From a virus: 29,552 bases of DNA. Where the stretch lies: IMG/VR virus record IMGVR_UViG_3300020468_000046, positions 1 through 29,552 of that record; one strand, 5' to 3'. The notes under the pieces are model-generated. The model saw only the letters and a list, made by a program, of their open reading frames with translations, was not told the origin of the DNA and made no database searches. The first letter of the stretch is position 1; each line of letters starts with the position of its first letter. This document shows, piece after piece, positions 48-25,700 of this stretch. Both the position numbers and the translations under genes were made by a program.

Positions 48-1460
48 TTAAAAACTCCCGAATGGATTTGATTCTGTAAAGTCAACAATAGAGTCTGCTT
101 CTGATTCAAATATGTCACCTTCATTGTATTTATCGGTAGTATCATCCTCATTAAATCTTGAAAGACTGTATATTGCACCAGATGATAGTCCTTTTATGTC
201 TTCACCAGCGAAGAACCCTGTAATTGTTCCCCCAATACCAATATTTGAAACAGAGAGAATATCTGTGTCCGTATCCCAATTTTTGACTCTTGCTTGAGTT
301 CCTGAACGCATTCCCTGAACAATCTCATTAAATTCAAAATTACCAGTTCCATTAATTGTCTCTGGATCAGATATTGTAACTGTAGGTTGAAGTGTATATC
401 CTTTTCCTGCGTTCTGTATGTATATTGATTTAACTTCATTAAATCCTGCACTATCTACACCTATTGAAGCAATACCAACTGCCTTATCAGCAGCAGTTCC
501 ACCCGCAGGATTAGATACTGTTACTGTTGGCACTGTTCCAAAACCAACACCACTATCAGACATAGTAAATCTTACAACACCTTGTGATGATGTTTCAATT
601 GAACAAGTTGCTGCTGCACCCGTACCACCGCCACCAGAAATTGTTATAATGGGAAGAGTTGTATAATTTGCACCTGCATTTGTCATAAGAATTTTTTCTA
701 TTGACCTCACACCTGCTCTTTCTGTTGTAAAGGCAACTGCAGTCGCATTATCACCTGCTAGACCACTAGGAGAAGTACTGATTGCAACCGTAGGAGTGCT
801 TGTAAATCCTGAACCATCATTATTTAAAAATATCTCACGAATATATCCTGTTCCACGAGATACAGTTGCTTGTGCAGTACGACCAACACCAACTAATTGA
901 AGTGTGGAGATATATCCTTCTTCTTGAACCTGAGTATCAATAGCATCAATTGAAGTATCGATAACTTCGTTCTCATATTCAAATAACTCACATTTTAGTT
1001 TGTAAACATAATTTTTACCTAATTGATAGAAAGGTTCTTCATGTTCTACAAATTTAACTTCAAATAATCTTTGACCAAGTGGAAAAAATACTAAGTCTCC
1101 TTCTCTTGGTCTTGATGCTAATTCTATATCATCAGATGCAGTCATGAAAGGTGCTATAAAATCTTCAAACCTTTCTTTTGAAATTGTTAATTCTACTTCA
1201 TCTCTTAGACTCATTCCAAATTTTGTTAATACATCACCTGCACCAGAATAACCATCATATGAATTGACATATGCTTCTAATACAAAATTATCATCAAATT
1301 TTGATGATTGTACTTCTTCTATAATTGATTGTTTATTTACATACTTACGAGGAATATATGTGATATCTAATCCATATATTTTTAGTTGTTCATTTATAAG
1401 ATCCTGAACTAATCTCTGCTCAGATTGGGAACCATGTAAAAAGTAGGAATTTCTTGCCAT
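48..1460 (-). CDS. gp14: gp14-like neck protein enlarged by an internal beta-repeat insertion
   Basis: This is a head-completion/neck protein that, with gp13, closes the DNA-filled head and prepares the portal for tail joining. Residues about 5-175 match the T4 gp14 family: the IYGLDITYIPRKYV segment, the AYVNSYDGYSGAGD...FGMSLRDEVELTIS block, PREGDLVFFPLG...LFEVKFVE and EPFYQLGKNYVYKLKCELFEY. The last residues, FTESNPFGSF, resemble the T4 gp14 tail. T4 gp14 is 256 aa, whereas this protein is 470. The excess lies at about residues 176-455 and consists of four GxGY/GxGF beta-repeats (about 207-364) followed by a Gly-rich SG-x-A module (about 375-440). The start at 1460 lies 4 nt after the gp13 stop and has AGGATGA-type ribosome binding sequence just upstream. 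It is cotranscribed with gp13. The family assignment is strong; the function of the insertion is unknown. Confidence 0.9.
   Translation of the reverse strand: MARNSYFLHGSQSEQRLVQDLINEQLKIYGLDITYIPRKYVNKQSIIEEVQSSKFDDNFVLEAYVNSYDGYSGAGDVLTKFGMSLRDEVELTISKERFEDFIAPFMTASDDIELASRPREGDLVFFPLGQRLFEVKFVEHEEPFYQLGKNYVYKLKCELFEYENEVIDTSIDAIDTQVQEEGYISTLQLVGVGRTAQATVSRGTGYIREIFLNNDGSGFTSTPTVAISTSPSGLAGDNATAVAFTTERAGVRSIEKILMTNAGANYTTLPIITISGGGGTGAAATCSIETSSQGVVRFTMSDSGVGFGTVPTVTVSNPAGGTAADKAVGIASIGVDSAGFNEVKSIYIQNAGKGYTLQPTVTISDPETINGTGNFEFNEIVQGMRSGTQARVKNWDTDTDILSVSNIGIGGTITGFFAGEDIKGLSSGAIYSLSRFNEDDTTDKYNEGDIFESEADSIVDFTESNPFGSF
369..842 (-). repeat. Four tandem GxGY-type beta-repeats inside gp14
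   Basis: Protein-level repeats lie at residues about 207-228, 254-275, 296-317 and 343-364, roughly 43-47 residues apart. Each has the pattern I-x-x-I-x-h-x-N/D-x-G-x-G/N-Y/F-T-x-x-P-x-h-x-I-S. The cores are NNDGSGFTSTPTVAIS, TNAGANYTTLPIITIS, SDSGVGFGTVPTVTVS and QNAGKGYTLQPTVTIS. Gly/Ala-rich linkers separate the units. The DNA copies are clearly diverged, so these are not recent duplications. Confidence 0.85.
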
Positions 1461-1464
1461 AGTA

Positions 1465-2307
1465 TCATCCTATCATATCAAGAGGAGGAGTTTCATATTC
1501 CTGCTGCATTCTTTGTTTGATTGAATCTAAATCTCTTATAGCATCATCATATATTTCTCTTCCATTTAATTCTATGCCACCTGGTAATTTAGTTCCTCTA
1601 AATTTAATCAAATTTTGTCCCCATTGTCTTTTAATTAATGCTGTCAAATATAATTTTATGAATGGATCGTTATAAACTTGGGTAAATGTATCAGGGTCAA
1701 GAGCACGAAAACAATCGATTACCATAAAATCACCTAATTGTTGTGCACCCCAATCAATGTCTAAGTATAATCTATCTTGTCTCTGATTAAATCTTATTTG
1801 TTTTTCTGTTGTTAATAAATGATCTATATCTTCTAAGTAAGTTTTTGTCATTGCATATTGCAATAAATTTACTGAATTAAAATAATATAGGTCATTTAAA
1901 AATAATTGATATTTAATACTAAACATTCCACCCGATATGGAACTAGTATCAAACTTAAATATTTTATTTACTCCTATTACGTGATCTGGAACTGCTAAAA
2001 AATTTGAACTTTCGTAAAAATTACTTGTAACTGCACCATATCCACTTACATTTTGTGTTCCAGTGGTAGTAACAATTCCTACACCATCTGTTCCTTTTCC
2101 TGTACCTCTATCAATATCCTCTTGAGTAATTTTATACTTAAGAAACATTCTCTCAATACCATTATAATGACGTTCATTATAGTACTGAATTGTATCGTCA
2201 ACTAAATCGTCAACCTGATCATCATCAACATTTATTTCCAATACTGGTGCACCCAGTTTACGAAAACAATAGTCGATTAATCCTTGTCTAGTTGATGGTT
2301 TAGCCAT
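1465..2307 (-). CDS. gp13: gp13-like neck protein
   Basis: This is the head-completion/neck protein partner of gp14, a homologue of T4 gp13 (309 aa; here 280 aa). The N-terminus MAKPSTRQGLIDYCFRKLG is followed by an acidic VDDDQVDDLVDDTIQYYNERHY segment typical of the family. Other family-like segments are the YQLFLNDLYYFN region and the C-terminal KLPGGIELNGREIYDDAIRDL stretch. The start codon overlaps the stop of the 57-aa gene by one nucleotide (TAATG), and an AAGGTG Shine-Dalgarno lies about 6 nt upstream within that gene, pointing to translational coupling. No repeat insertion is seen, unlike gp14, gp8 and gp7. Confidence 0.9.
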   Translation of the reverse strand: MAKPSTRQGLIDYCFRKLGAPVLEINVDDDQVDDLVDDTIQYYNERHYNGIERMFLKYKITQEDIDRGTGKGTDGVGIVTTTGTQNVSGYGAVTSNFYESSNFLAVPDHVIGVNKIFKFDTSSISGGMFSIKYQLFLNDLYYFNSVNLLQYAMTKTYLEDIDHLLTTEKQIRFNQRQDRLYLDIDWGAQQLGDFMVIDCFRALDPDTFTQVYNDPFIKLYLTALIKRQWGQNLIKFRGTKLPGGIELNGREIYDDAIRDLDSIKQRMQQEYETPPLDMIG

Positions 2308-2483: not shown

Positions 2484-4121
2484 TTAAAAAGTTCCTCCGT
2501 CTAGGGTTGAAGTCCAATGTGGTTTATTTGTATATACCACTGTAACAGTATTAGGTACAGATGACAAGTTAAATATGGCACCATTGTTACCTTCTTTACG
2601 TAAATTGTTAGAAGTATTGAATGTTCCTTCAACACCGATTAGATTTACTGAGGCAGAACCAGTAACACTAGTCTCAACAACACCAAATGCACCTGTGCTA
2701 TCTTGTTTAATAATATCACCTGCAGCTGCAGTGATAGCAGCATTTAGAGCGAGTGTATTTTTAGTTATTGCTGTTAATATCTGTTTTGATGTTACAACTG
2801 GTGATTGAGGATTATTGGTAGACTGCTGTAGTCCTTCACTATCAAACCAAACCACACCACCTGAGTTAAAGTCCCCTGACTGATAGTAGATACCTTTAAT
2901 ATCAAGGAAACCTTTTGTTCCAGCAACTACACTGTTTGATATAGTTGCATCAGGAACATATGTCCATCTTCTACTGTCATCACCGTGTGTTCCGTGATTG
3001 CCAGCACCAGCAGTGCTTGATGCAATTGAACTATCATCAAATCCAAAGAAACCTTCTTTTGCATTTGCGGTTCCAACACCAACGTTATAAGTGTAACTTA
3101 ATCCACGGTCAGTATTGGTATCTATTGCATGAGTAACTGTTAATTGTTGACTAGTAGCGATACCTGCAACTGTTACACCTTGGAATGTTAATGTCTTAGT
3201 ACCTGTATTAACATTTGTAATCGTTGTAATACCACTTAATGATAAACTTCCATGCTGTATAGTATCATTAACATTGATTCCTATTATCGAATCAACTACA
3301 ACTGTAGATGCACCTGCGTTCACAGTTTGCATAACAGTTCTTGAACTAGTAGCATCACCAACTGATAGTATAGGATCGTTTACAGTTGCTTGTGTGGAGT
3401 TAATTGTTGTAGTTGTACCATCAACTTGTAAGTTACCTTTGATGATAACATCACCTTCATTACTTAATCCATCTGGAAATGGATCGATGAATAGTTTAGT
3501 AGTACCACCCAGAGTTTGAATGCTATTATTACTAATTTGAACTTGTCCAAGAGTAGCATTGCTTCCCTGAACAACTAATTGACCACCAACAATAACTCTA
3601 GTTGTATCGAATTTTACATCTGCTCCAGCAAATTTTAACTGATCATCTCCATTCTCATCATATTCAATGGTTGCATCTGCAGCTGATGTTCCATTTGCAC
3701 CTCCACCAAATCCAAGTTTGGTGTCATCGGGAACCATTACCTCACCAGATCCATTTGGATTGAAGATTATATCTCCATCTGTATCAGTAGAGGATAAGGT
3801 ATTTGCATCTAAAGTTAAGTTATCTACATTCCAAAGATCTATTTTTCTACTACTATCAAGTACTGCTACAATACCACCGTCACTATTTCTTGCGTTTGTT
3901 ACACCATTCAAAGCACCAGGTGTGTGCTCCATCATGGATGTATAGTAATGTCCACCTACTGGATTGACGTTTGTACCGTCATCTCCTAAAAATATTCTAT
4001 CTTTGTATTGGTTTGTGCCACCATATTGACCTATACCAGTCACATACGCCATTTCACCCCAATTCAAACTAGCAGGTTTGGCCGTACCCGATGATCGTTT
4101 GATTCTAATTATACTAGCCAT
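2484..4121 (-). CDS. Tail-fibre-like virion structural protein (545 aa)
   Basis: This is a probable tail fibre or fibre-like appendage protein. The N-terminus (residues about 4-45: IRIKRSSGTAKPASLNWGE, then an RIFLGDDG element) has the R-x-K-R-S-S...L-x-x-GE-x-AY pattern seen at the start of many phage fibre and receptor-binding proteins, including Mtd-type N-terminal domains. Residues about 223-255 (GDVIIKGNLQVDGTTTTI, then DPILSVGD) are a fibre motif that recurs in marine T4-like phages. Residues 338-420 contain DRGLSYTYN, GFFGFDDSS and YVPDATISN segments, also common in such fibres. There is no chaperone or peptidase domain at the C-terminus, which ends in DGGTF. It starts 1 nt after the preceding 76-aa gene, with GGAGGA at 4137-4132. 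It lies where T4 carries genes 9-12 and wac. Exact equivalence to any T4 protein cannot be claimed. Confidence 0.7.
   Translation of the reverse strand: MASIIRIKRSSGTAKPASLNWGEMAYVTGIGQYGGTNQYKDRIFLGDDGTNVNPVGGHYYTSMMEHTPGALNGVTNARNSDGGIVAVLDSSRKIDLWNVDNLTLDANTLSSTDTDGDIIFNPNGSGEVMVPDDTKLGFGGGANGTSAADATIEYDENGDDQLKFAGADVKFDTTRVIVGGQLVVQGSNATLGQVQISNNSIQTLGGTTKLFIDPFPDGLSNEGDVIIKGNLQVDGTTTTINSTQATVNDPILSVGDATSSRTVMQTVNAGASTVVVDSIIGINVNDTIQHGSLSLSGITTITNVNTGTKTLTFQGVTVAGIATSQQLTVTHAIDTNTDRGLSYTYNVGVGTANAKEGFFGFDDSSIASSTAGAGNHGTHGDDSRRWTYVPDATISNSVVAGTKGFLDIKGIYYQSGDFNSGGVVWFDSEGLQQSTNNPQSPVVTSKQILTAITKNTLALNAAITAAAGDIIKQDSTGAFGVVETSVTGSASVNLIGVEGTFNTSNNLRKEGNNGAIFNLSSVPNTVTVVYTNKPHWTSTLDGGTF
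2493..2498 (-). promoter_or_regulatory. Shine-Dalgarno GGAGGA embedded in the fibre gene's last codons
   Basis: The sequence GAC GGA GGA ACT TTT TAA encodes the terminal DGGTF of the 545-aa protein and also supplies a consensus ribosome binding site 12 nt before the ATG at 2480. It supports the short 57-aa gene as real. Confidence 0.7.
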
Positions 4122-12084: not shown

Positions 12085-13683
12085 TTAGAACTCTAGTATG
12101 ATTTTTATATCCTCTTTTTGTCGAGTGCTTCTTACAATTTCTGGTCTATTGTCTAAGTAAATTATTTGTCCCGACCCTTTATTTATCTCAGAATTAGATA
12201 ACCCTGCTTGAAACCTAGTTCCTAAGTTAATAAGTTTATTACCAGTTGGATTAGTGGAGATACCTGAAAAATTAACCGCTATACTACCCGAAAATCCTGA
12301 TTTTTCACCATTTATATTATTTCCTGTTGGTGCAGGAGCACTTTCAAATTGATATATTCTTGCAGCTGTAGTTATTCCAACATAATCTGTATGATCGTAT
12401 GATGTATTATTAAAATAAAGTGACCTGTCTCTAAAGTATTTTAAAACTTTAGTGTCTTTATCAAAAGACGCAACAAATCCTGTAGCAATTTTTCCTGCGT
12501 TTGGAGTTATTGTCAATAATTGATTTATTTTTTCACCAACTTCTGGTGTACCATTGAAACTGTCTGTAAACTTCACCGCCTGTAATGATGAAAATGTATT
12601 ATCATCATAGATAGTTGTAGTTCCAGACTTAGTTGGATTTTTTACAACCCCAACCTGTGCAAATGTAGTATCACTTGGAAAATCTTTTGTGGAATCATCA
12701 AATCTACAATAAATTATAACTTTATCTGTTCCTAATTCAGTGTAAATATCATCTCCATGACCTTTACCAGGTGGAATCACAGGTATTAATTTTGCCTTTC
12801 CATTTGTTGGAACATTAGAATTTAAAGTATCTAAGTCAACAATACCATAAGTATACTCTTTTCCACCAGAACTTACAGTTATATTCGTGATAGTTCCACC
12901 AACAACATCTACTCTCGCTTTTGCACCTGTTCCATCGCCCAATATATTTACCTCTTGAGATAAACCATTCTTATAATTGGTACCACCATTCTCAATATAA
13001 ACATGTTTTATTTGATTTAGATTCACATCAGAATTTGCATTTTCTCTTACTGTCCTTATTTGAGAATCAGTTGATGATGACCAATCATTTGGAACAGTAA
13101 TGAATTCTGTTGAATCAAATTTTATTATGTCACTTGGGGATACTGTAAATATATACTTCCACCTATACCCATCACCACTATTACCTGCTTTTGATGGTTC
13201 TAAATCAGTAAATGTAGGTTCGTCTTGAGATACATTTCCTAAAGGATTAGTTCCAGATGAACCATTATCAATACAAACATAGACTTTAAACTCAGAGTTC
13301 ATAACATAATAATTTGCATCATATAATCTATTGGATTTTGTTATAGGACTTTGATTATCAGCACTATAATCATCTCTATAAATTTCATATCTATTACCAG
13401 ATACCCAATCTACTCTTCTAATAAGTCTTCTTATATTGCCAGAGGATACTTTTTTACCAAACATCATCGTATCACCAGCATGTTTTCGATAAGAAAAACT
13501 ATCTATTGGTGCAGGAGTGTTTGTATTCCAACCTGTTGATCTACCAAATCCTACTAAACTTTCTGCTCCAGTTGGATTTGCTAGTCCTAAAAATACATAA
13601 TATGAATTATTTGTATCTTCTACTGACGCTACAAAATTATTAGCATTTAAAATTCTAAATTGATCAGTAACAATTGCCGACAT
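12085..13683 (-). CDS. gp8: gp8-like baseplate wedge subunit with repeat insertion
   Basis: This is a homologue of T4 gp8, the baseplate wedge protein that joins gp7 and gp10. Family signs are AIVTDQFRILNANNF near the start, YYVFLGLANPTG...FGRSTGWN, a RRVDWVSGNRYEIYRDDYS stretch, DGYRWKYIFTVSPSDI, FITVPNDW, FPSDTTFAQVGVVKNP (about 331-347) and the C-terminus GQIIYLDNRPEIVR ending IILEF, which parallels the T4 gp8 C-terminus (IYMENRPPI...ILFTF). T4 gp8 is 334 aa, whereas this is 532. Part of the excess is an insertion at about residues 226-310 with two repeat-like units (NGGTNYKNG and SGGKEYTYG) of the type also found in gp7 and gp14. It is the first gene after the late promoter at 13709-13716, and the 2491-aa gene follows 1 nt after its stop. 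Confidence 0.88.
   Translation of the reverse strand: MSAIVTDQFRILNANNFVASVEDTNNSYYVFLGLANPTGAESLVGFGRSTGWNTNTPAPIDSFSYRKHAGDTMMFGKKVSSGNIRRLIRRVDWVSGNRYEIYRDDYSADNQSPITKSNRLYDANYYVMNSEFKVYVCIDNGSSGTNPLGNVSQDEPTFTDLEPSKAGNSGDGYRWKYIFTVSPSDIIKFDSTEFITVPNDWSSSTDSQIRTVRENANSDVNLNQIKHVYIENGGTNYKNGLSQEVNILGDGTGAKARVDVVGGTITNITVSSGGKEYTYGIVDLDTLNSNVPTNGKAKLIPVIPPGKGHGDDIYTELGTDKVIIYCRFDDSTKDFPSDTTFAQVGVVKNPTKSGTTTIYDDNTFSSLQAVKFTDSFNGTPEVGEKINQLLTITPNAGKIATGFVASFDKDTKVLKYFRDRSLYFNNTSYDHTDYVGITTAARIYQFESAPAPTGNNINGEKSGFSGSIAVNFSGISTNPTGNKLINLGTRFQAGLSNSEINKGSGQIIYLDNRPEIVRSTRQKEDIKIILEF
12826..13008 (-). repeat. Two GxxY beta-repeat units inserted in gp8
   Basis: Residues about 226-285 contain IKHVYIENGGTNYKNG, then GAKARVDVVGGTITNITVSS, then GGKEYTYGIVDL. 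The pattern is hydrophobic strand, GGxxY turn, hydrophobic strand and GTGA linker, as in the gp7 and gp14 repeats. T4 gp8 has no such element at this place. Confidence 0.7.
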
Positions 13684-13729: not shown

Positions 13730-16700
13730 TCAAGTTAAAACAGCCCTAATTGAACCACTAGATCTGTGCCCACGCTCACCAATATTATCATAACTCTTTC
13801 TTTGTATTGTGGGGAAAGTTGTGAGTCCACTATTTACGGTCAATCCAGTAACACCAATAGAAATTGGATTACTCGAACGTGCCACATCATTACCATACAA
13901 TCTACCCCAACTTAGAGTTCCTAAACTTGTAGTTAATCCAATTATGGTAGGATCAAAGAACCCTTCAGTATTAATACCACTAATAGAACTAGCACTATTT
14001 GTATGTACATGACATACGACAGTTCCATTTGAACCGTTAGATGTTATAGAATGAACAACGTAAACATTATCAAGGAAAGTTGTGCCAACGCCAACGACTG
14101 ATGCATTACCAGGTTCTACAGATGTAAGTCCATTTCCCACTTTTGTATCAGTAATTAGAATTGGATATCCTACTTTTAGTGTATTTGCTTGAGCAACATC
14201 ATACTCACTGTTACTATTTTTGGTTACTGCGTAGTAATCAAACCTAAGTGCTGGACCTCCACCACTTCTAGTAGTTTGAGTAATGCCAGTGATAATTCCA
14301 GTGTAACCTTGGAAATTAGATATTCCAGTTAATTTTTCTGTTTTAAATTTAGGTAGATCGATTATTACCTCTGGTGGATTACCAGAACTATATCCCAATC
14401 CAACATTAGTTACCGTATGTCCAGTTATTTGTCCATTTGTAACAGTTAGAGTTGCTGTTGCTGTTGTTCCTACACCAACACCAATCCCAGAAGGTGGTGC
14501 TGCTATTCTTACGTTTACTACACCTTCATACCCAGAACCTTGTTCAGTAATGTTTAGAGAAGAAACATATTTTTGAGTACCAACTCCAGCAATAACTGCT
14601 TCTGCAGATGCGGGAGTATGAATCTCACCAGATGTAATCAAAGCATCAACTGAGTCAACTGTAAATCCAGAATACTTATTCTCATAGAATAATGAAATAG
14701 CATCGTCAACAAATATTCCATCATTATTTCCAGTACCCTTTCCAGATATAGTTGACAAATCTCCAATTATTTTTGATGTAGGATAAATTTGAGGTTCTAA
14801 TATAGATCTTGATGTGTCAATTACCTGACCATTAATCTTAATAGCAGTTTTTTGTTTTGTCCATCTCACTGGTTTTTCATGAACTTCATCAATACCTAAA
14901 CCTGTGTAGATATCAGTATCAAGTAAATCTGTATTAAGAATTTCTTTTACTATTCTTTCACCAGATTGTGAAGTTGTTATTCCAGGTAGAGAATCATTTT
15001 TAAAGACTTTTAAATTATCACCTATTTTTATACTTTCAGAGACATTTTCAATTTGAACATCTATACCATCAATTCCCTTATAAAAGTAAATATCAACTTT
15101 ATCATTATCATTAAGACCACTACTAGACTCACCACTAGGTGGTTCTGTAAATGAGAATGTAGTTCCACCTTGGAATTGATATGCTTCACCAGGTTTCTGT
15201 AACACACCATTAATAAAAATCAGTAATACAGCATCTAAGTCAATTAAAGCAGAACGTGGATCAGTTAATACTTTTTCAAAACTCAATAATTCACCATTAA
15301 AGAATAATGGGAATCTTGTTCTTACACCATCTTGAAGAATTTTAATACTATCAATAGCATCTAGTTCACCAAATTGCCAAGCAGAGAATTTATCATTAAA
15401 TATTTCTAATACTTCTAATTCAAATTCCTGTATTGGTGATGTTAAGTGAGCAGCAGTGACTAATCCTACAGGTTTGAATTTATCTCCTTTTTTGAATGAG
15501 TGTCCTGCTCTTGCAATTTCAAAATCTTTAATTTGGAATGTTGTAGATCCAATTCCAACAGTGGTTGATGCAGCACTAACTCCAACATTTAATAATAGAT
15601 TTAATCCAGTATCAGTAGTAGCACCAACTCCCAATCTAGATACACCCACAACTTCAAGATTCTCATAAACTGGTTCAGGTATGATTATTTCTGGATTTAC
15701 ATAACCTCTACCTGTATCAACTATATTAAAGGATAGGGTACCTCCAACACCCACAGTTGCCTCTACAACTGCACCTGTTCCTCCTCCACCACCTTGACCA
15801 ACATTTATTATAATTGTATCTGTTGTAGTTGCTATTATAGCAGTTTGTATTCCAGCAATAGGATCAGAGTTAGGGAAACTTGTTTTAGATACTGCACGAG
15901 GATATGGATGGTTTGAGAAGTAATTATCTTTAGAACATTGGAATATTAATCCACTAGTATCAATACCAACTGTATCACTTGTTGTTAATGTATGACTTGG
16001 TATTGTTAGTATAAGTTTACCTGAATGTGATTCATAAACTGCGTCAGTTGCAGTAAACGCATCTCCAGCAAAAGTACCTTTTCTTATTGAACCAATACCT
16101 GCACTTACAAATTTATGTACGTATGCAATGTCAGTAACACCTATCGCAACACTACCTCCTCGATAACCAGAACCAAATGTTAAATCTTCATAGAATTCAT
16201 ATGCATAACCACCACCTTGATAAGTATGTGGTATTGTGCTGGCACCTGCTCTTACCTCAAAACTTCTCTCAGATACAATACCAACAACAAATAATGGTCT
16301 TTCGTGGTCTTGGAAGATGGTTGTTGTAACTCCAACATATCCACCACCACCAATTGTTTGAACTGCAGTGGCAGTTGCTGAAACAAAGGTATGAGGATAA
16401 ACATCACCTGGATTAGATGCACCAACATTTACTCTAAATGTATTTGTAGTAACGTTGCTTACTGTTAAATATTGATTTGCAGCAGGGTCAGTTGCTCTTG
16501 GATAGTATTTGGTTGATACATTACTGTCTAATGTACATGTGAACCCGATTGAATCTGTTTCAAGAACTACAGCATCACCATTTACTAACCCATGATTTGC
16601 AATTGTTATTGTAGAGATACCAGTTACACCGTCGTAAGTAGCATTAGTAGGTTGTCCAACGACAGTCTTAGGACATCTAAATTCTAATCCCTTTAATTTA

Positions 16701-19700
16701 ACTGAAGTGGGTCTATCTAATGCAAATCCATGAACATCATTAGTTGTGACAGTGATTATTCCAGTATTATTATCATAATCAGCAGTTTGAATACCTATAT
16801 TGAATCCCGATGATGTGCCAATACCTACAATACCTGTCAATTCACCATCACTATTTTTCTCTGCCCTTACTTTAGCACCATTTAATGGAGCATATCCTGT
16901 ACCTTCAGTAGAACCAAGAGAAACGATAAGACCACCTCTAGGTATCTGGTTTTGATTAATATCAGAGTCTGATACTATAAACTGTCCATTTTCAGAAGTT
17001 ATGCCTGTAAATCTAATTGTTGAAACTCCAGCAGTTGTATCAGCAAGAATATCGTAATTATTTGGATTTCCTGTATTATTGTTTGTATCTGGAGTTTGGA
17101 AAACTCCATTTATGAATACAACTCCATTTCCTAATCCAATACCTGCAGATGTATGTGCTCCACCAACTTTTAAATCATATGCTGTGGTAAGACCAGTAAA
17201 AGTATCTGAAATATCATCAAATAACATATTTGTGGTATAATCTTGTCTTAAGAAAGTTCTACCACTAAAGTTTGCTTTTACGAAAGGTATTTCACTATCA
17301 GTTCTTCTTGAACGAGTATTTCCTTTAGGTGGATCAATAAAATGAATATCACTATCAACAATATTAAATGATCCTCTATTTACCCTGATAGTATCACCAT
17401 TAGTGTGTGAAGTAGCAGCAATTCCTAGAACACCTCTTTCAACTCTAACTGTTGGTATTGTTGAAATTCCTAGAGAAATATTTAATTGATCATCTATCTT
17501 TTCACTTCCATCTGATGTACTTGAAAAACCAACTTCAATAATTTTCATATATTCATTGTCAATTTTTAATACATCGAATGTTGATATTGAACTAATACCA
17601 CTCAATGAGAATTGTGTAGTTGCAGCACCGATGTTTACATCTAATGTATAATTTAAATCTGTAAATGTAATCGGTTGTTGTACTACACCATCTAATCCAA
17701 TAATTGTTTTTGACAATTTATTCGACATATTCAACTTATGAGCATTACCAGCACCGATACCAGTAAATGTTATTGCAACACCTGAAGTTACATCCTCTTT
17801 TGTTGGGAATAATTGAAATCTATTTTCATCTAATGATTTTGCAAATACAGTTGTAGGTAAAATATCAGTAGTAACGCCAGCATTATTAACTGTTGATCCT
17901 ATTGATATTGCAGTAGCAGCAATTCCAATAAATGTTGATGTTGGTTCATACGTAAGTTCTTCGTTTGTATTGAAGAAGTGATTTGAAATAGTAAATATTC
18001 CTGTACTCTTAGCAAGACCAGCACCATCAGGATTGAATGTTTTAGTGTATATTGGTGTGCCTTCAAATTGTAAATCAAATTTAGTTTTATTTGCTCTTCT
18101 ACCCTCTAGTCCATCATATGAAGATAATATAACATCTGTCTCTACAGCACCATATTTTAAAATACCTGGAATATTATCAAAATCGGATGCTGAATATAAA
18201 ACTTGATTATAAGCTTGAACAGTAACTGCATCAGTAAATTCTGCATCAGGAACAAAAAGTAATGAGATATTATCACCATTTGTATCTGATATGAAAGAAC
18301 CAATTCCAGATGTTGAACCTAATGAAACATATGGATACTGAACAACTAAGACATCTGAAGCATCACTGATTGCAATAACTTGATGAATAGCTGAAGTTTG
18401 TCCAGTAGATACCTTAACTAATGATTTTACGGAACCATCTATTGTTTTGTCAAGATTAGCATAAGTAATAGAAGTACCTGTGCCAACATTGACTGTAGAT
18501 TCAAATCTCGCACTTCTTTCAGCACCTATAGGTTGTCCTGTTGTTAAAAATCTATATGTGCCAATTCCAGCAGTTATTGTTCCTAAACCAATTATATTTG
18601 CTTTTGCGTCTAGTGTAGTAATTCTATCATTTTCAATTTGCAATTTAACAAAATTATTTTCCATTCTGGCAGTTAGTACACCAACACTATTTGTAGTAAC
18701 AGAACCCCCATCATCAATATAAACTTGTGATGTAGTGGTGTCTACACCATCAAAATCAATTGTTATTTCGTTATAATTAAATTCTTTAGTAACTGAGTCT
18801 TGAACAAAAATAGTTGCATGTAATCCATTAAATTCATCTTTATCAAATTGGGCAACTGTTGTAGTAACAAACCCTGTTGTAGCAGACGCTATTCCTACGT
18901 TTGCACTTACTAGTTTTATACTTCCAAGAACACTAGTTGTAACACCCAAAGTATCATTATCGTAGAAAGTTTTGACCATTTTAATATCATGGTCTTTCGT
19001 AAATTTTTCAACAGGATTGAATAATAAATTTTTAGTTCCGTCAGTTTTTACTTCAGTATCAAAACTTCCTAATAATATATTTGCATCAACACTATCTGAA
19101 CCTATTCCAACTCCAGTGCTATCTGATGATTTTTCTAATAATAAAACATCATTTTCTGTTGTAAGGAGAACTAATTCAGTTAATTGTGTATCAGATGTAT
19201 CAGGATCAGTTATTTGAATTAAATAATGTACAAATTTACCATTAATTTCATTTAAAACAGTAGAATTTGCAGCAAATCCTACACTTGAAAACTCATCACT
19301 AACATCATCATGAATAAGAACTCTATTTGAGATACATTTATTAAAATTCGTTAATTTTTTCTCTGATAATATTAGAGATTTTGTTTTATTTCCTGATCTA
19401 TTAAAATCTAATGCATTATCAAAATTATTAATAGCATCAACTCTATTATCATCGCTAAGTACATCAAGAATCGTAACATCTATTGCTGATCTAGAAGTAC
19501 CAATTCCCACATTAGTTTTGGTTTCTATAAATGTATCTGCAAAGTTTTTTAAACCTGCAGGGTGTAATATACTATTCAAACTATTTGAGAATTTATCCCA
19601 AGCAATAGGACTCTTTACAGAATATGATAAGTTTTGATAATAATCATTATTAGGAGTTACTTGAGTATCATCACTTAATTTACCTATATCATCAATCCAT

Positions 19701-22700
19701 CCAATATCTTGACGATTTGAGAAATCTGTTTCAAATTTGCCTTTATTATGTTTTAAACCAACAATCTCTGCTGATACACCAGTAGCTCTTCCTTCAATTC
19801 TATCACCTTTCTTAAGGTACTCTAATCCATCCAATTTAACATAGTCATCTCTTATTTCAACTACAGTAAGTTCAGAATCCTCATTATTTAAAAGAATTGG
19901 TTCATTATCTTGAAAAACACCTCTAGTTTGAATTGGACGTATATCTGGATAATTTTTTCTATTGATGATTGATGCAAATCCAGATTGGAATGATTTTGCA
20001 ATACCAGGATTTGTAGTAACACCTGCTACGCTAAATTTTACAATGGTAGTGCTGCCTGGAGTGTATGATTGAACTGTAAAGAACTGGAAACTGTGGTCAG
20101 CAGAGTTAAATCCCTCTCCTAGAACTTCTCCACTACTAGCATCTCCATTAGACGTGCCTGTACTTAATCCTGATATTCCTCCTTCTCCAACTCTTTGTAT
20201 TCCCTCTACATAAATTTCATCACCAACTTGAAATGGTTGTGGATCAAGGAAACCGTTAAATGGTGTTTCCATGAAACAAGTAACTAATCCTCCAGAACTA
20301 GTTTGCATTGAATTAATTCCTATTCCATTTGAATTATTAATCGCAAAAATCTTATGCTCAACAGAATCTAAACCATTTATTGGTGCAATAATATCAACAT
20401 CAGCGATTGTTTGACTAGGAACTTGAGGACTTAAAGAAGAATTATCTACAATTGTGTTAGAGGTTGGATTAAAGAGTATTAAACTTGGTGGAGTTGTATA
20501 ATCTGTACCACCATTTACTATTTCAACGTCACTTAATTGATCTAAATTATCAATATTAATAATTGAAGGAATGTATACTTCGGGTTCTAGAGTCTTATCT
20601 GATGAATACTCATAACCAAGATCTACTATTCTAAGACTTTCTATTTTACCTATATTTTTTGAATCAGCGACTAAGTTAGCGTTAGTGCCATTATCTGAGA
20701 TTACTTCCTTAAATACGGGTACTTTTTTATAATTAAATCCTTTTGATAATATCCTGATATTTTTAATTGCACCATTTACATTCTTTGATTTCGTTGAATA
20801 TTCAAGTGTTTCGCAATCTGCTTCTTCATAACGCAAAAATTCAGGTACCTTTGGTGAAAAATCAAATGTTTCATTTGTCACATTCGATATTTTATACTCA
20901 CCATTATATAAACTATCAACAAAAATAATTTGTGAGTAATTTTGCACACCAGTATCTGCTGTGCTTATAAATCCACCCTTAGTTAATCCATAATATAGAA
21001 TTGGTGGTGTTGAAGTAGTTGGTTGTAAAGTTAAAGTCGCACCAACAGGATCACTACTATCTGTTCCCAAACCTATTGTTCCTTGTGTTTGAACATTGAA
21101 TATTGTTGAATCAAGAGAACTTAGATATTCATTTTCACCATTTTCATAGAAAATATTAAAGTCAAAATCTGCAAGATTGGTTGTTGATAAACCAAATGTA
21201 AGTTTAGAGTTTTTATATACTTTGATTTGAGGATTAATAGGTGATATAACTTGATTATTTCCACCACTATTTGATGTAATATCAATCAATTTTATTGGAT
21301 CTGCATATAAATCATTGTAAGTTTCTGCAAGTTGGAAATATCTACTGCTTACTTCATGAACAAAATAAGAACCATTAGGTATTCCAGTACCATCACCTGT
21401 GTAAAAAACTTTATCTCCTGTTTTGAATCCATGATTTGCAATATCAATCCTATTTGTTTCTACATCTGAGCTAACAAATTTTATTGGATTTATAATTAAT
21501 TTTTCAAACTCTGAATTATAGTCAACTTGTATAGGTGTTGTTGTATCAATTCCAACAGGTAGATTCGGTACAACATTTATTGTAACAATATCCCCATTTT
21601 GCAAATTATGAGTCGTTGTATTCGCAGCAGCAACTTTTGTAGTCAAAGTGCTTATAACTTTATCAATATCACCAGTCACCTGTTCAAATTGTGATGTTAT
21701 ATTATAAAGATGTGTATTAATACCACTAACATTACTTGCATTTGATTTGAAATAAAGTCCCTCTGATGTAGCACCAACCCCAATGGTTGTAAGACCAATA
21801 TAATCATTACTTTTTTTAATTACAAATAAATCAATTGAGTTGTCTGTATTAAGGAATGGTAACGAAAAATTTCCATCCGAATCATTAGGATCATCAGTAT
21901 TTGCAACATTTATCTGTTTATTAGCAACACCAGGAACATTAAGTTTTACTTTTTGTCCCGTGACAAATGGATGATTAGGAAGATAAATTTGTCTGTTTGG
22001 AATAGATATTGATTTAATTGTTTCTCCAACGACATAATTTGTTGATATTGCCTCTCCATCAGTTCCAACTCCAATTTGTTGAGGTGCGTTGAAGTAAACA
22101 ACATCATTTAATTGAGACTCAAATTTCTTTGTTTTTACAGGTAATGATATAACTGTGTTTAATATATCAACATTTGATCCGTATGTGTGTGCAACTCCAG
22201 CACCTCTAGAGACACGAATTATTTTTTCTGCAGGGAATATATTAATTACTTCGACAGTTTCATCAATTGTTCCTGATTGGAATTCAGATGTATTTCCAGA
22301 ACCAATTCTTATGATTCCACCAACTGAAACATCATTAGGTATCTTATTAACAAAAACATCTTCTATCGCTACATTGCCAGATGTTACTGTCTTCATTGGT
22401 GAAATTAAAGACACACGAGAAGTATTGATACCAATTTCAAATGAATTTGTTAATCCCTGAATTGAAGTACTCAAACCAGAAACTAAAACATAATCTTTGT
22501 GATTTAATTCAACATATGGTAAATAATTTGCTCTTACTTCATTATTACTAATCCAAGTAAACACTAAATTTTCAAATGTAGTAAGATTAGTTTCAATAAA
22601 AGATACTCCTAAACCAACTATATCACTTACCTGTGCATTTAATCCTGTACCATTTGTATCTGTATTATCAAAAGATGTGTAATCACCAACCTTATATCCA

Positions 22701-25700
22701 GTTCCTGGGTTTAATATAGTAATGTCATCAACTTCACCTTTTGATACTGATAATACTTGTGATGATTGTCTAATAGTTTCATTAGACTCAATAAGGAAAT
22801 CATTATCAGCAAATTCTTCATTTACATTATAAGGATAAGTATTTCTAGATAAATTTGAATTATTAAAGTCAAATTCATGATTTAATTTAAGATTATCTTG
22901 TATTAAAGGTAATCTAAATGATTTTCCTATAAAATAAGGATATGCTCCAACTAATTTACCATTAATGTCAACTTCTGCAGTTGCAAAGTAAGCATATATT
23001 CCATTTGGAAATTCTGGGGTTTTACAGAATCTTCCATTATGTACATCTAAATCTCCAGAATTGTTGAATATATAATCGTTAATAAAATACCCATCATCAA
23101 AACCAGATGGTCTATTATCAACTTTACTAACATCTTTGATATAGGATGAACTTATTAATTTTAAAGCAGAACTAATATTATTTGGATCCGTATATCCAAA
23201 TGGTCCATAAATTGGATTTCCATCATATGCCCAACCAATTATTGATGAGTGTTTTGTTGGTTTGTCAAAATCACCATTACTTAAAACATCGAAACTATCT
23301 TTTTCTAAATTTGTAAGTAATTCCTGATTACAACCTATAACTCCAAAACTTAAAAAGTCACCTCTTGAGACTAATGTAGTGTCACCAGATTTACCCTGTT
23401 CGTTAATTTGTAATTTTCTTACAGTAGTATCAAATGCACCATTGATACCAATGTTAGAAACAGTTGCATCTGTAGTGCTCTGACTGTACCCTATACCAGC
23501 GTTTACAACAACAGTGCTGATAAGTTTACCATTTTCAATTACAGGTCTTACAATGGCACCTGAACCCTTATCAGTAGATGTTATTAATATTTCAGGATTT
23601 GAGTAGTAATTTTCACCTTGATCAAGTACAACCACCTCTTCAACCCTTCCATTAGAGATTATTGGTCTAATTTCTGCATATTTTCCACCATCAATAGTAA
23701 TAGATGGTTTTGCTATATTGTTTAATATAGTTGAACCGTAATTAGATCCACTCTCATATAGATAAGCACCAGTAAACGAACCTTTAACGTAAGGTGTTAT
23801 GGTAAAATCACCAGTCACTGTACCCCCATAACCTACTTCAAGGTTAACTTTAATATCAGGATATTTAAAAGTTTGATAACCTGTTCCAGTAGAATTCAAT
23901 CCAACAATTTTACCTCTTTCAAAATCTACAGAAGATGTGCCACCTACACCAGCATTTGCTAGTTTGAATGAATTATCATCAACTTTCATCACATAATAAG
24001 ATGATGATGTTGATAGACCCTGAATTTCTCTTGGCATTGTTGAACCAATACCAACCATAGGTGTGTAATTAATTAAATCACCATGATTAAACCCATGATT
24101 AATAAAATTAACAGTATCAAAAGAAGTTGATATTCCAGATGGTTTGACAATTAATTTGCGATGTTGATATCCTTCTCCCGATTCAATAACTTTAATATCA
24201 ATTATTGTATTTTTTGATATGGTTCTAAAGATATGCGTACCAGCTGCTGCAGTATCAGTTGATAATCCAACTGTATTGATTCCTGAAAGAGCATCATTTT
24301 GCGTATTGTAGATTCTAACAGTCGAAGTATTGACAACTCTTACATAATAAGGATCTCCACTTGCTAAAGTTCCAGTTATAGTATTAGTTCCATCATAAGC
24401 AGCACCTATTCCTATTGACGGATTACCGTTATTTAAGTAATATACTAATTCCCCATTCTCTAAATTATGTTTCTTTTCAAATGTGATTGTCTCGTCAACG
24501 ATATCAATACCACCACCAAAGAATATATCTCTACTGTCAAAGGTTAATTCTCTATATCTATCCCCTGTTACTGCTTCTAAGACACATCCTGTTCCATTTC
24601 CACCAGTTAACGAAATATTCTTGACTGATTCAATATCAAAATCTTGCTGATCTATGAGAATCTTTTCAACAGATCCAGATAAAATAGGTTCTACCAGTGC
24701 TTGATCACCAGTGCTAGTTTCTACAATTATTTTTGGTGGATTGATAATATCATAATTCGATCCACCATTTATCACTTCTACATCAGATAAACCACCATAA
24801 TTTATGAAATCCTCTGATACTGGAGATCTTAACTCTACACCATCTTTTAATATTCCAATATCACCAATGTTTTCATCATTATTTGATGAATTGATTAAAT
24901 TTTGAGTTAAAGGAAATTTTCTTAAAACTTTATTAGCACTTATCTTCTTATCATGATGTCTCTGTATAGTAAATACGTGTTGATCTTTAGTAGATACTCC
25001 TAATCCAATTTGTACAGTGCTTGCTGTCCCAATTTGTGCTCTAGACAAATATAGTGCTATTTTAGTAATATCTGTACCAGGTGCCTCTACTTGTGGGTCA
25101 ACATAATATAATTGTCCATCATTTAAACCAGGAGGAACTTCAGATGGATCAGTATTTGCAGAATTGGGATCTTTAATTGAATTATATACAACAGCATCAC
25201 CTTGTATAAATTTTATATCTCTATTTGTGTCGAACTTAAATCTAAGAATGTTATATAATCCATTAATATCATCTTGACCTTCAAGTGCAAAATTAACAGT
25301 TGTTTGTGCTATACCAATAATTTTTTCACTGATGACTTGATCTGTAATATCATAACTTGGTAATGAGTTTGATGCGACATAACCATCTGTATTACCATCA
25401 ACATATACATTTAATACATCAGATATAATCTTATCATTTCCTTCTCTTATTTCAAGTCCCGTACTAGATGCCTTTTTAATTACTCTACGTATATCATACT
25501 GTTCACCTGAAACAGGAGTAAACCCTAAATTAGTTAAAGTTATTTGGTTTGAATTAGGACTAACACCACCTTCAGCGACTGTAAAAGTACCATCTACAAC
25601 TTGTTCATTCCTTCTTAATACTTGAAATAGATCACCCTCTGTTATAGAAGATTTATCAAGTTTAACACCCAAATCAAGTGTTGCACCAACGTCATCTGTT

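Follow-up and report, generated by a model that had tools for sequence, protein, structure and literature searches.

What a large beta domain is doing inside the protein that closes the head of a T4-type phage is the question raised by gene 14 in a 29,552-nucleotide stretch of viral DNA (IMG/VR record IMGVR_UViG_3300020468_000046; the window, hereafter), a 29.5-kb fragment of a P-SSM2-like T4-type cyanophage. The gene (48..1460, minus strand) encodes a gp14 head-closure (neck/stopper) protein of 470 amino acids (aa), in which about 260 residues of beta domain lie between a conserved core (residues 1-176; 933..1460, minus strand) and a conserved C-terminal tail (residues 441-470; 51..140, minus strand) that ends DFTESNPFGSF. 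On balance, the protein is probably an ordinary T4-type head-closure protein plus an accessory decoration arm. By analogy with T4, it would form a gated hexamer with six dispensable, probably exposed arms, most likely serving as an adhesion or docking surface.

The assignment to gp14 is based on several lines of comparison. The Pfam family T4_neck-protein (PF11649) matches residues 11-176 (E 7.5e-32; 111.2 bits against a curated cut-off of 25), T4 gp14 itself matches residues 12-170 (E 1.5e-25), and the PHROG matches are the head closure Hc2 families PHROG 460 (E 1e-125) and PHROG 679. A model of the core, of moderate predicted local distance difference test (pLDDT) score, superposes on T4 gp14 structure 9lu7 with Z 11.3 over 130 residues. 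T4 gp14 (PF11649; PDB 9LU4-9LU7, 9MKB) thus shares the core fold, i.e. the beta-barrel with an alignable stopper-loop region, as well as a gp13 neighbour and a C-terminal tail after the core. It differs in having only 72 residues beyond the core and neither of the two domain types described below, and the window protein is about 25 N-terminal residues shorter at its start. A preliminary description of the stretch had likened the N-terminal part to T4 gp14 and placed an insertion at 96-935; both points hold, the interval being residues 176-455 of a single minus-strand open reading frame. The insertion is real, yet its proposed size of 280 residues is too large, since 72 against 294 post-core residues leaves about 220 extra. 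The cultured cyanophage P-SSM2 carries a gp14 that is also 470 aa long, 68% identical along its full length and built of the same parts. Together with PHROG 460 (Kyanoviridae head closure Hc2) it is the family of the window protein, from which nothing of substance sets it apart.

Within the insert two kinds of domain can be told apart. Four tandem modules of about 43 residues (A modules; consensus V..I..TN.G.GYT..PTVT.S......A.A) match a module profile with individual E values of 1e-16 to 1e-13. All on the minus strand, these are A1 at residues 204-249 (714..851; 1.9e-16), A2 at 251-292 (585..710; 1.8e-16), A3 at 293-334 (459..584; 5.9e-13) and A4 at 341-371 (348..440; 3.5e-16), the A4 match spanning 341-383 and overlapping the following domain from about 371 on. 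Because the profile was built from units of eight gp14s, these same units included, the repeats were also assessed independently by shuffling; the summed pairwise alignment score of the four units is 329, compared with at most 184 in 2,000 shuffles. Residues from about 371 to 440 (141..350, minus strand) form a distinct domain, B, in which F..GE.i.G..SG..A.V occurs twice. The repeats, earlier supposed to fill residues 176-455, are therefore confined to 204-371, and residues 182-200 and about 371-440 belong to the other, small barrel domain.

Modelled alone with AlphaFold2, the insert (182-445) is predicted to be one folded domain (pLDDT 88.3; predicted template modelling score 0.74). Small-barrel structural matches cover about 57-65 residues, discontinuous over insert-model positions 1-246, which suggests that residues 182-200 (861..917, minus strand; equivalent of AITVGLV in Syn19) supply the first strand or strands of barrel B and that the A modules are set within B. 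Searches of the PDB returned no sequence relatives of the insert or the module, and Foldseek with the insert alone found nothing in the PDB at E<=0.001; its matches at a probability of 0.1 or less, lysenin among them, are not credible.

The insert is not peculiar to this genome. It is read in frame in 77 complete IMG/VR relatives and in P-SSM2, and a separate adjacent gene holding the repeats, looked for in close relatives, was not found. Annotated gp14s measure 212-219 aa in Bhz51, Maynard and BX-1, 256 in T4, and 263 and 278 in others; cyanophage gp14s range from 292 to 767 aa. Profiles of both domain types were run on 44 gp14s, and that of Pelagibacter phage HTVC008M (classed Kyanoviridae) was read by eye, outside the scoring of B. 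Barrel B is present in every cyanophage gp14 scored and absent from the other six sequences, with no match in T4 or in Ackermannviridae, Rhizobium or Stenotrophomonas phages. The number of A modules per cyanophage gp14 is 0, 2-5, 8, or 5-6 with an extra domain, and the four-module layout is kept across a broad clade. Judged by these sequences, the insert is lineage-wide, and some cyanophages lack the repeats: Syn19 and S-RIM44 have an uninterrupted barrel B with no A modules. The 290-aa gp14 of HTVC008M likewise has no A modules; the stretch that joins its core to the NPFG tail is of another, acidic kind. Although the sequences sit in databases, no description of the insert was found in those open-access papers retrieved that mention cyanophage gp14.

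Module gain or loss has been recent. In a tree of the core Syn19, with no A module, groups with a relative designated L222, which has two (support 86/96). The difference is a clean indel of about 80 aa inside barrel B, and phages with near-identical cores can differ by one such module pair. In S-ShM2, ACG-2014i and L222 an A pair of about 80 residues interrupts B at another loop, between GETITG and AEVKSW. One module type therefore occupies two different loops of barrel B, depending on the clade.

Selective constraint differs between the parts of the protein. Ratios of nonsynonymous to synonymous substitution (dN/dS) were calculated by the Nei-Gojobori method on 78 sequences (the 77 relatives plus the window), in pairs that overlap in ancestry and with recombination uncorrected. 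For pairs of at least 90% identity the values are 0.038 (core), 0.156 (A), 0.104 (B) and 0.046 (tail); for pairs of 80-90% identity they are 0.051, 0.236, 0.116 and 0.060, respectively. The A modules thus change about four times as fast as core and tail, yet under purifying selection, and constraint on the tail equals that on the core despite more than 200 residues in between. Equal constraint of core and tail fits the behaviour of T4 gp14 residues 178-256, the region in which the insert lies: they have no ordered structure until the tail is attached, and in the virion they are bound to gp15 (PMC12270204). By that analogy the C-terminal tail would be the gp15-docking side of the protein. Its conservation, proposed earlier, is strong among cyanophages, with a (D)F(T/S)E.NPFG motif (tail motifs were read in 266 gp14s); against T4 a short PF motif alone remains. 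The earlier suggestion that the insert loops out between core and tail is consistent with this equal constraint and with the prediction of a single folded domain.

A function can be proposed on this basis. As in T4, gp14 would be a hexamer whose barrel gates the DNA channel and whose C-terminal segment docks gp15; with core and tail conserved, closure, gating and docking should be unchanged. The six inserts would project around the neck, as arms at the height of gp14 and gp15, and form an exposed, dispensable binding surface that is not part of the gate. The arms may adhere weakly to glycans of the cell surface or the environment, or they may dock tail fibres that have folded back. For the A modules a binding surface is preferred over a clamp because of their presence or absence in close relatives, their faster evolution, their sharing with baseplate and fibre-like proteins, and a lectin-type domain in one clade.

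That sharing is evident in the window itself. A gp14-type repeat stretch lies in a gp7-like baseplate wedge protein (residues 1127-1202; 23471..23698, minus strand; PHROG 460 positions 221-288, E 6e-12) and another in a gp8-like baseplate wedge protein (residues 204-279; 12847..13074, minus strand; PHROG 460, E 3e-4). A hidden Markov model (HMM) of the gp14 units gave only weak matches on the window, in the gp7-like protein, the stronger link coming via PHROG 460. In P-SSM2, S-CAM9, Syn19 and S-ShM2 the module profile matches gp7-type giant proteins, gp8 and tail-fibre-like proteins; it also matches two places in a Rhizobium phage, and none in T4 or Maynard. With the insert as query, all matches listed by tblastn among 50,697 phage records are gp14s, from cyanophages or from marine viruses related to them.

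The lectin-type domain is found in gp14s of the S-SSM7 clade (760-767 aa), where a laminin-G-like domain is situated between A modules. Fourteen of 20 proteins scanned, 15 of the 20 being from this clade, match at E<0.01 (best 6.3e-7). In S-SSM7 gp14 (762 aa, L095:1486-3774) the laminin-G/ConA-like domain lies at residues 323-448, and the majority of its clade relatives have it too. For Laminin_G_3 one S-SSM7-type gp14 scores 28.6 bits, above the cut-off of 27.6, and S-SSM7 itself 26.6, just below; the window gp14 has no Pfam match to it.

Fibres or adhesins at the neck had also been envisaged in the preliminary description, with fibritin whiskers as the T4 counterpart. An adhesive or docking role fits the lectin-type domain and the occurrence of the same modules in baseplate and fibre-like proteins; a replacement of fibritin is not supported. 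The whiskers of T4 fibritin (wac) also decorate the neck, but as a separate trimeric fibre protein on gp13 domain III, the fibritin-binding part of T4 gp13 (PMC12270204). The gp13 neck adaptor of the window (280 aa; 1465..2307, minus strand; phrog_211, E 5e-46) lacks that domain, its alignment to T4 gp13 showing a gap at domain III (190-239). Fibritin_C was sought in relatives because the window is only a fragment; T4 was positive, and six cyanophage genomes (P-SSM2, S-ShM2, Syn19, S-CAM9, S-SSM7 and S-T4) were negative. However, Maynard, BX-1, Bhz51 and RHph_Y68, which belong to other families, combine a gp13 without domain III and a gp14 without the insert, and Fibritin_C was not found in Maynard, the one insert-less genome tested. 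Domain III is thus gone also where gp14 has no insert, and a one-for-one replacement of fibritin by the insert is not supported.

Other neck and sheath decorations provide partial precedents. The head-closure protein (stopper) of Staphylococcus phage 812 bears an external beta-sandwich that is missing from the related stoppers of E217 and Pa193, and the neck of phage 812 is decorated (PMC12886913). That stopper has a single beta-sandwich with no variable repeat array reported, and the decoration proteins and putative whiskers of phage 812 are separate gene products. Anabaena phage A-1(L) is a cyanophage whose neck appendages carry a distal carbohydrate-binding module; its fibres are built from proteins of their own (gp80-gp82) that sit on a 15-fold ring, and no insert in the head-closure hexamer is involved. 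Sheath proteins often carry added beta domains that face outward, for which a role in adhesion or stability has been proposed (PMC9230969).

Several points weigh against arms that bind. No ligand, binding data or structure for this neck was found, and the outward projection of the arms is itself presumed by analogy with T4. No known Pfam domain rises above noise in the insert of the window protein, and no glycan-binding family is among the matches there. The carbohydrate-binding module of the A-1(L) neck fibre did not bind its own host (PMC10966104). A published positive-selection signal on gp14 is discounted, having been judged indistinguishable from false positives by its own authors (PMC5112629).

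The exposed-arm reading has wider implications. The usual view of neck proteins is that of a conserved and passive seal. Here, between zero and eight extra modules are tolerated with both ends conserved, which makes the neck a place where adhesion or fibre docking might occur in phages without fibritin. The viruses concerned are very abundant in the ocean, and P-SSM2, which shares the arrangement, is a cultured phage. A bolder extension, put forward tentatively and held to be rather doubtful, is that the gp14 hexamer of marine T4-like cyanophages could be an evolvable neck display platform, with barrel B as a socket for beta modules, or for a lectin-type domain in one clade, and six adhesive arms far from the baseplate.

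The best surviving alternative, unlikely as it is, holds that the arms reinforce the joint by packing on gp15, gp13 or the top sheath ring and clamping the head-tail junction, as has been proposed for the neck decoration proteins of phage 812 (PMC12886913). The insert does adjoin the putative gp15-docking tail, and barrel B occurs throughout the cyanophage gp14s scored and is under tighter constraint than the A modules. However, a module number that varies from 0 to 8, differing between phages with near-identical cores, and the fourfold faster evolution of the A modules speak against a clamp; the idea suits barrel B better, which may have a structural role for the same reasons of presence and constraint.

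A second alternative, a sub-case of the exposed-arm reading and less probable again, gives the A modules the task of keeping tail fibres, once folded back, at the neck; in T4 this task is shared by fibritin and the protruding Domain I of the sheath protein gp18. T4 gp18 Domain I stands out from the sheath and is a binding site for long tail fibres in the retracted state; substitutions G106S, S175F and A178V block retraction (PMC3004832). Residues 208-290 (A1-A2) superpose on it over 76 residues with Z 5.8-5.9, root-mean-square deviation 3.4-3.5 and 18% identity, although a Z below 8 may reflect a common arrangement. At the sequence level, and not by residue-level structural alignment, the PGSNY glycine of gp18 resembles the invariant glycine of the A module; this glycine corresponds to the published G106, being residue 107 with Met counted, and S176 and A179 match the published residues at the same offset. 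The six cyanophage genomes without Fibritin_C also agree with such docking. Both domains are small beta domains set into a conserved virion protein, but Domain I belongs to the sheath, not the neck, and has no significant sequence or profile similarity to the A modules. Profile methods gave no significant link (hhalign probability <3%, iterated HMM searches never significant), and the likeness is kept as a structural lead only. Folding-back of fibres to the neck in these phages is, moreover, an assumption.

It is improbable that the module is simply a mobile beta repeat with a tendency to enter loops of cyanophage virion proteins, its presence at the neck being tolerated without any specific role. 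The occurrence of the A module in gp7, gp8, tail-fibre-like proteins and gp14, and the use of two different barrel B loops in different clades, would be expected of such an element; purifying selection on the modules, with dN/dS about 0.2 and not 1, and retention of the four-module layout over a broad clade argue for function instead. That an assembly or annotation artefact joins gp14 to a separate repeat gene is ruled out for practical purposes by the uninterrupted frame in the relatives and P-SSM2, with nothing found in its favour.

Adjoining gp14 upstream is gp13, and gp15, which lies past the window edge, is adjacent to gp14 in P-SSM2. The other large genes encode gp25-, gp6-, gp7- and gp8-like baseplate proteins in P-SSM2 order. 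The gp7-like protein is 4448 aa long (13730-27076, minus strand), with several weaker repeat matches besides the one stretch, and P-SSM2 gp7 is similarly giant. In a scan of 14 control genomes PHROG 460 also had a match in Synechococcus elongatus, where the repeat part of the family perhaps meets a host protein.

The next large gene before gp13 encodes a 545-aa protein (2484-4121, minus strand; phrog_15769, E 1e-123) at roughly the position of T4 wac. At the corresponding place S-ShM2 has a YadA-domain protein of about 2,200 aa, and P-SSM2 has a protein of about 530 aa nearby. The 545-aa protein is a better candidate than gp14 for a true neck fibre. In S-CAM9, gp13 (L093:816-1937; 373 aa) has an insertion of about 90 residues unseen in the other gp13s aligned.
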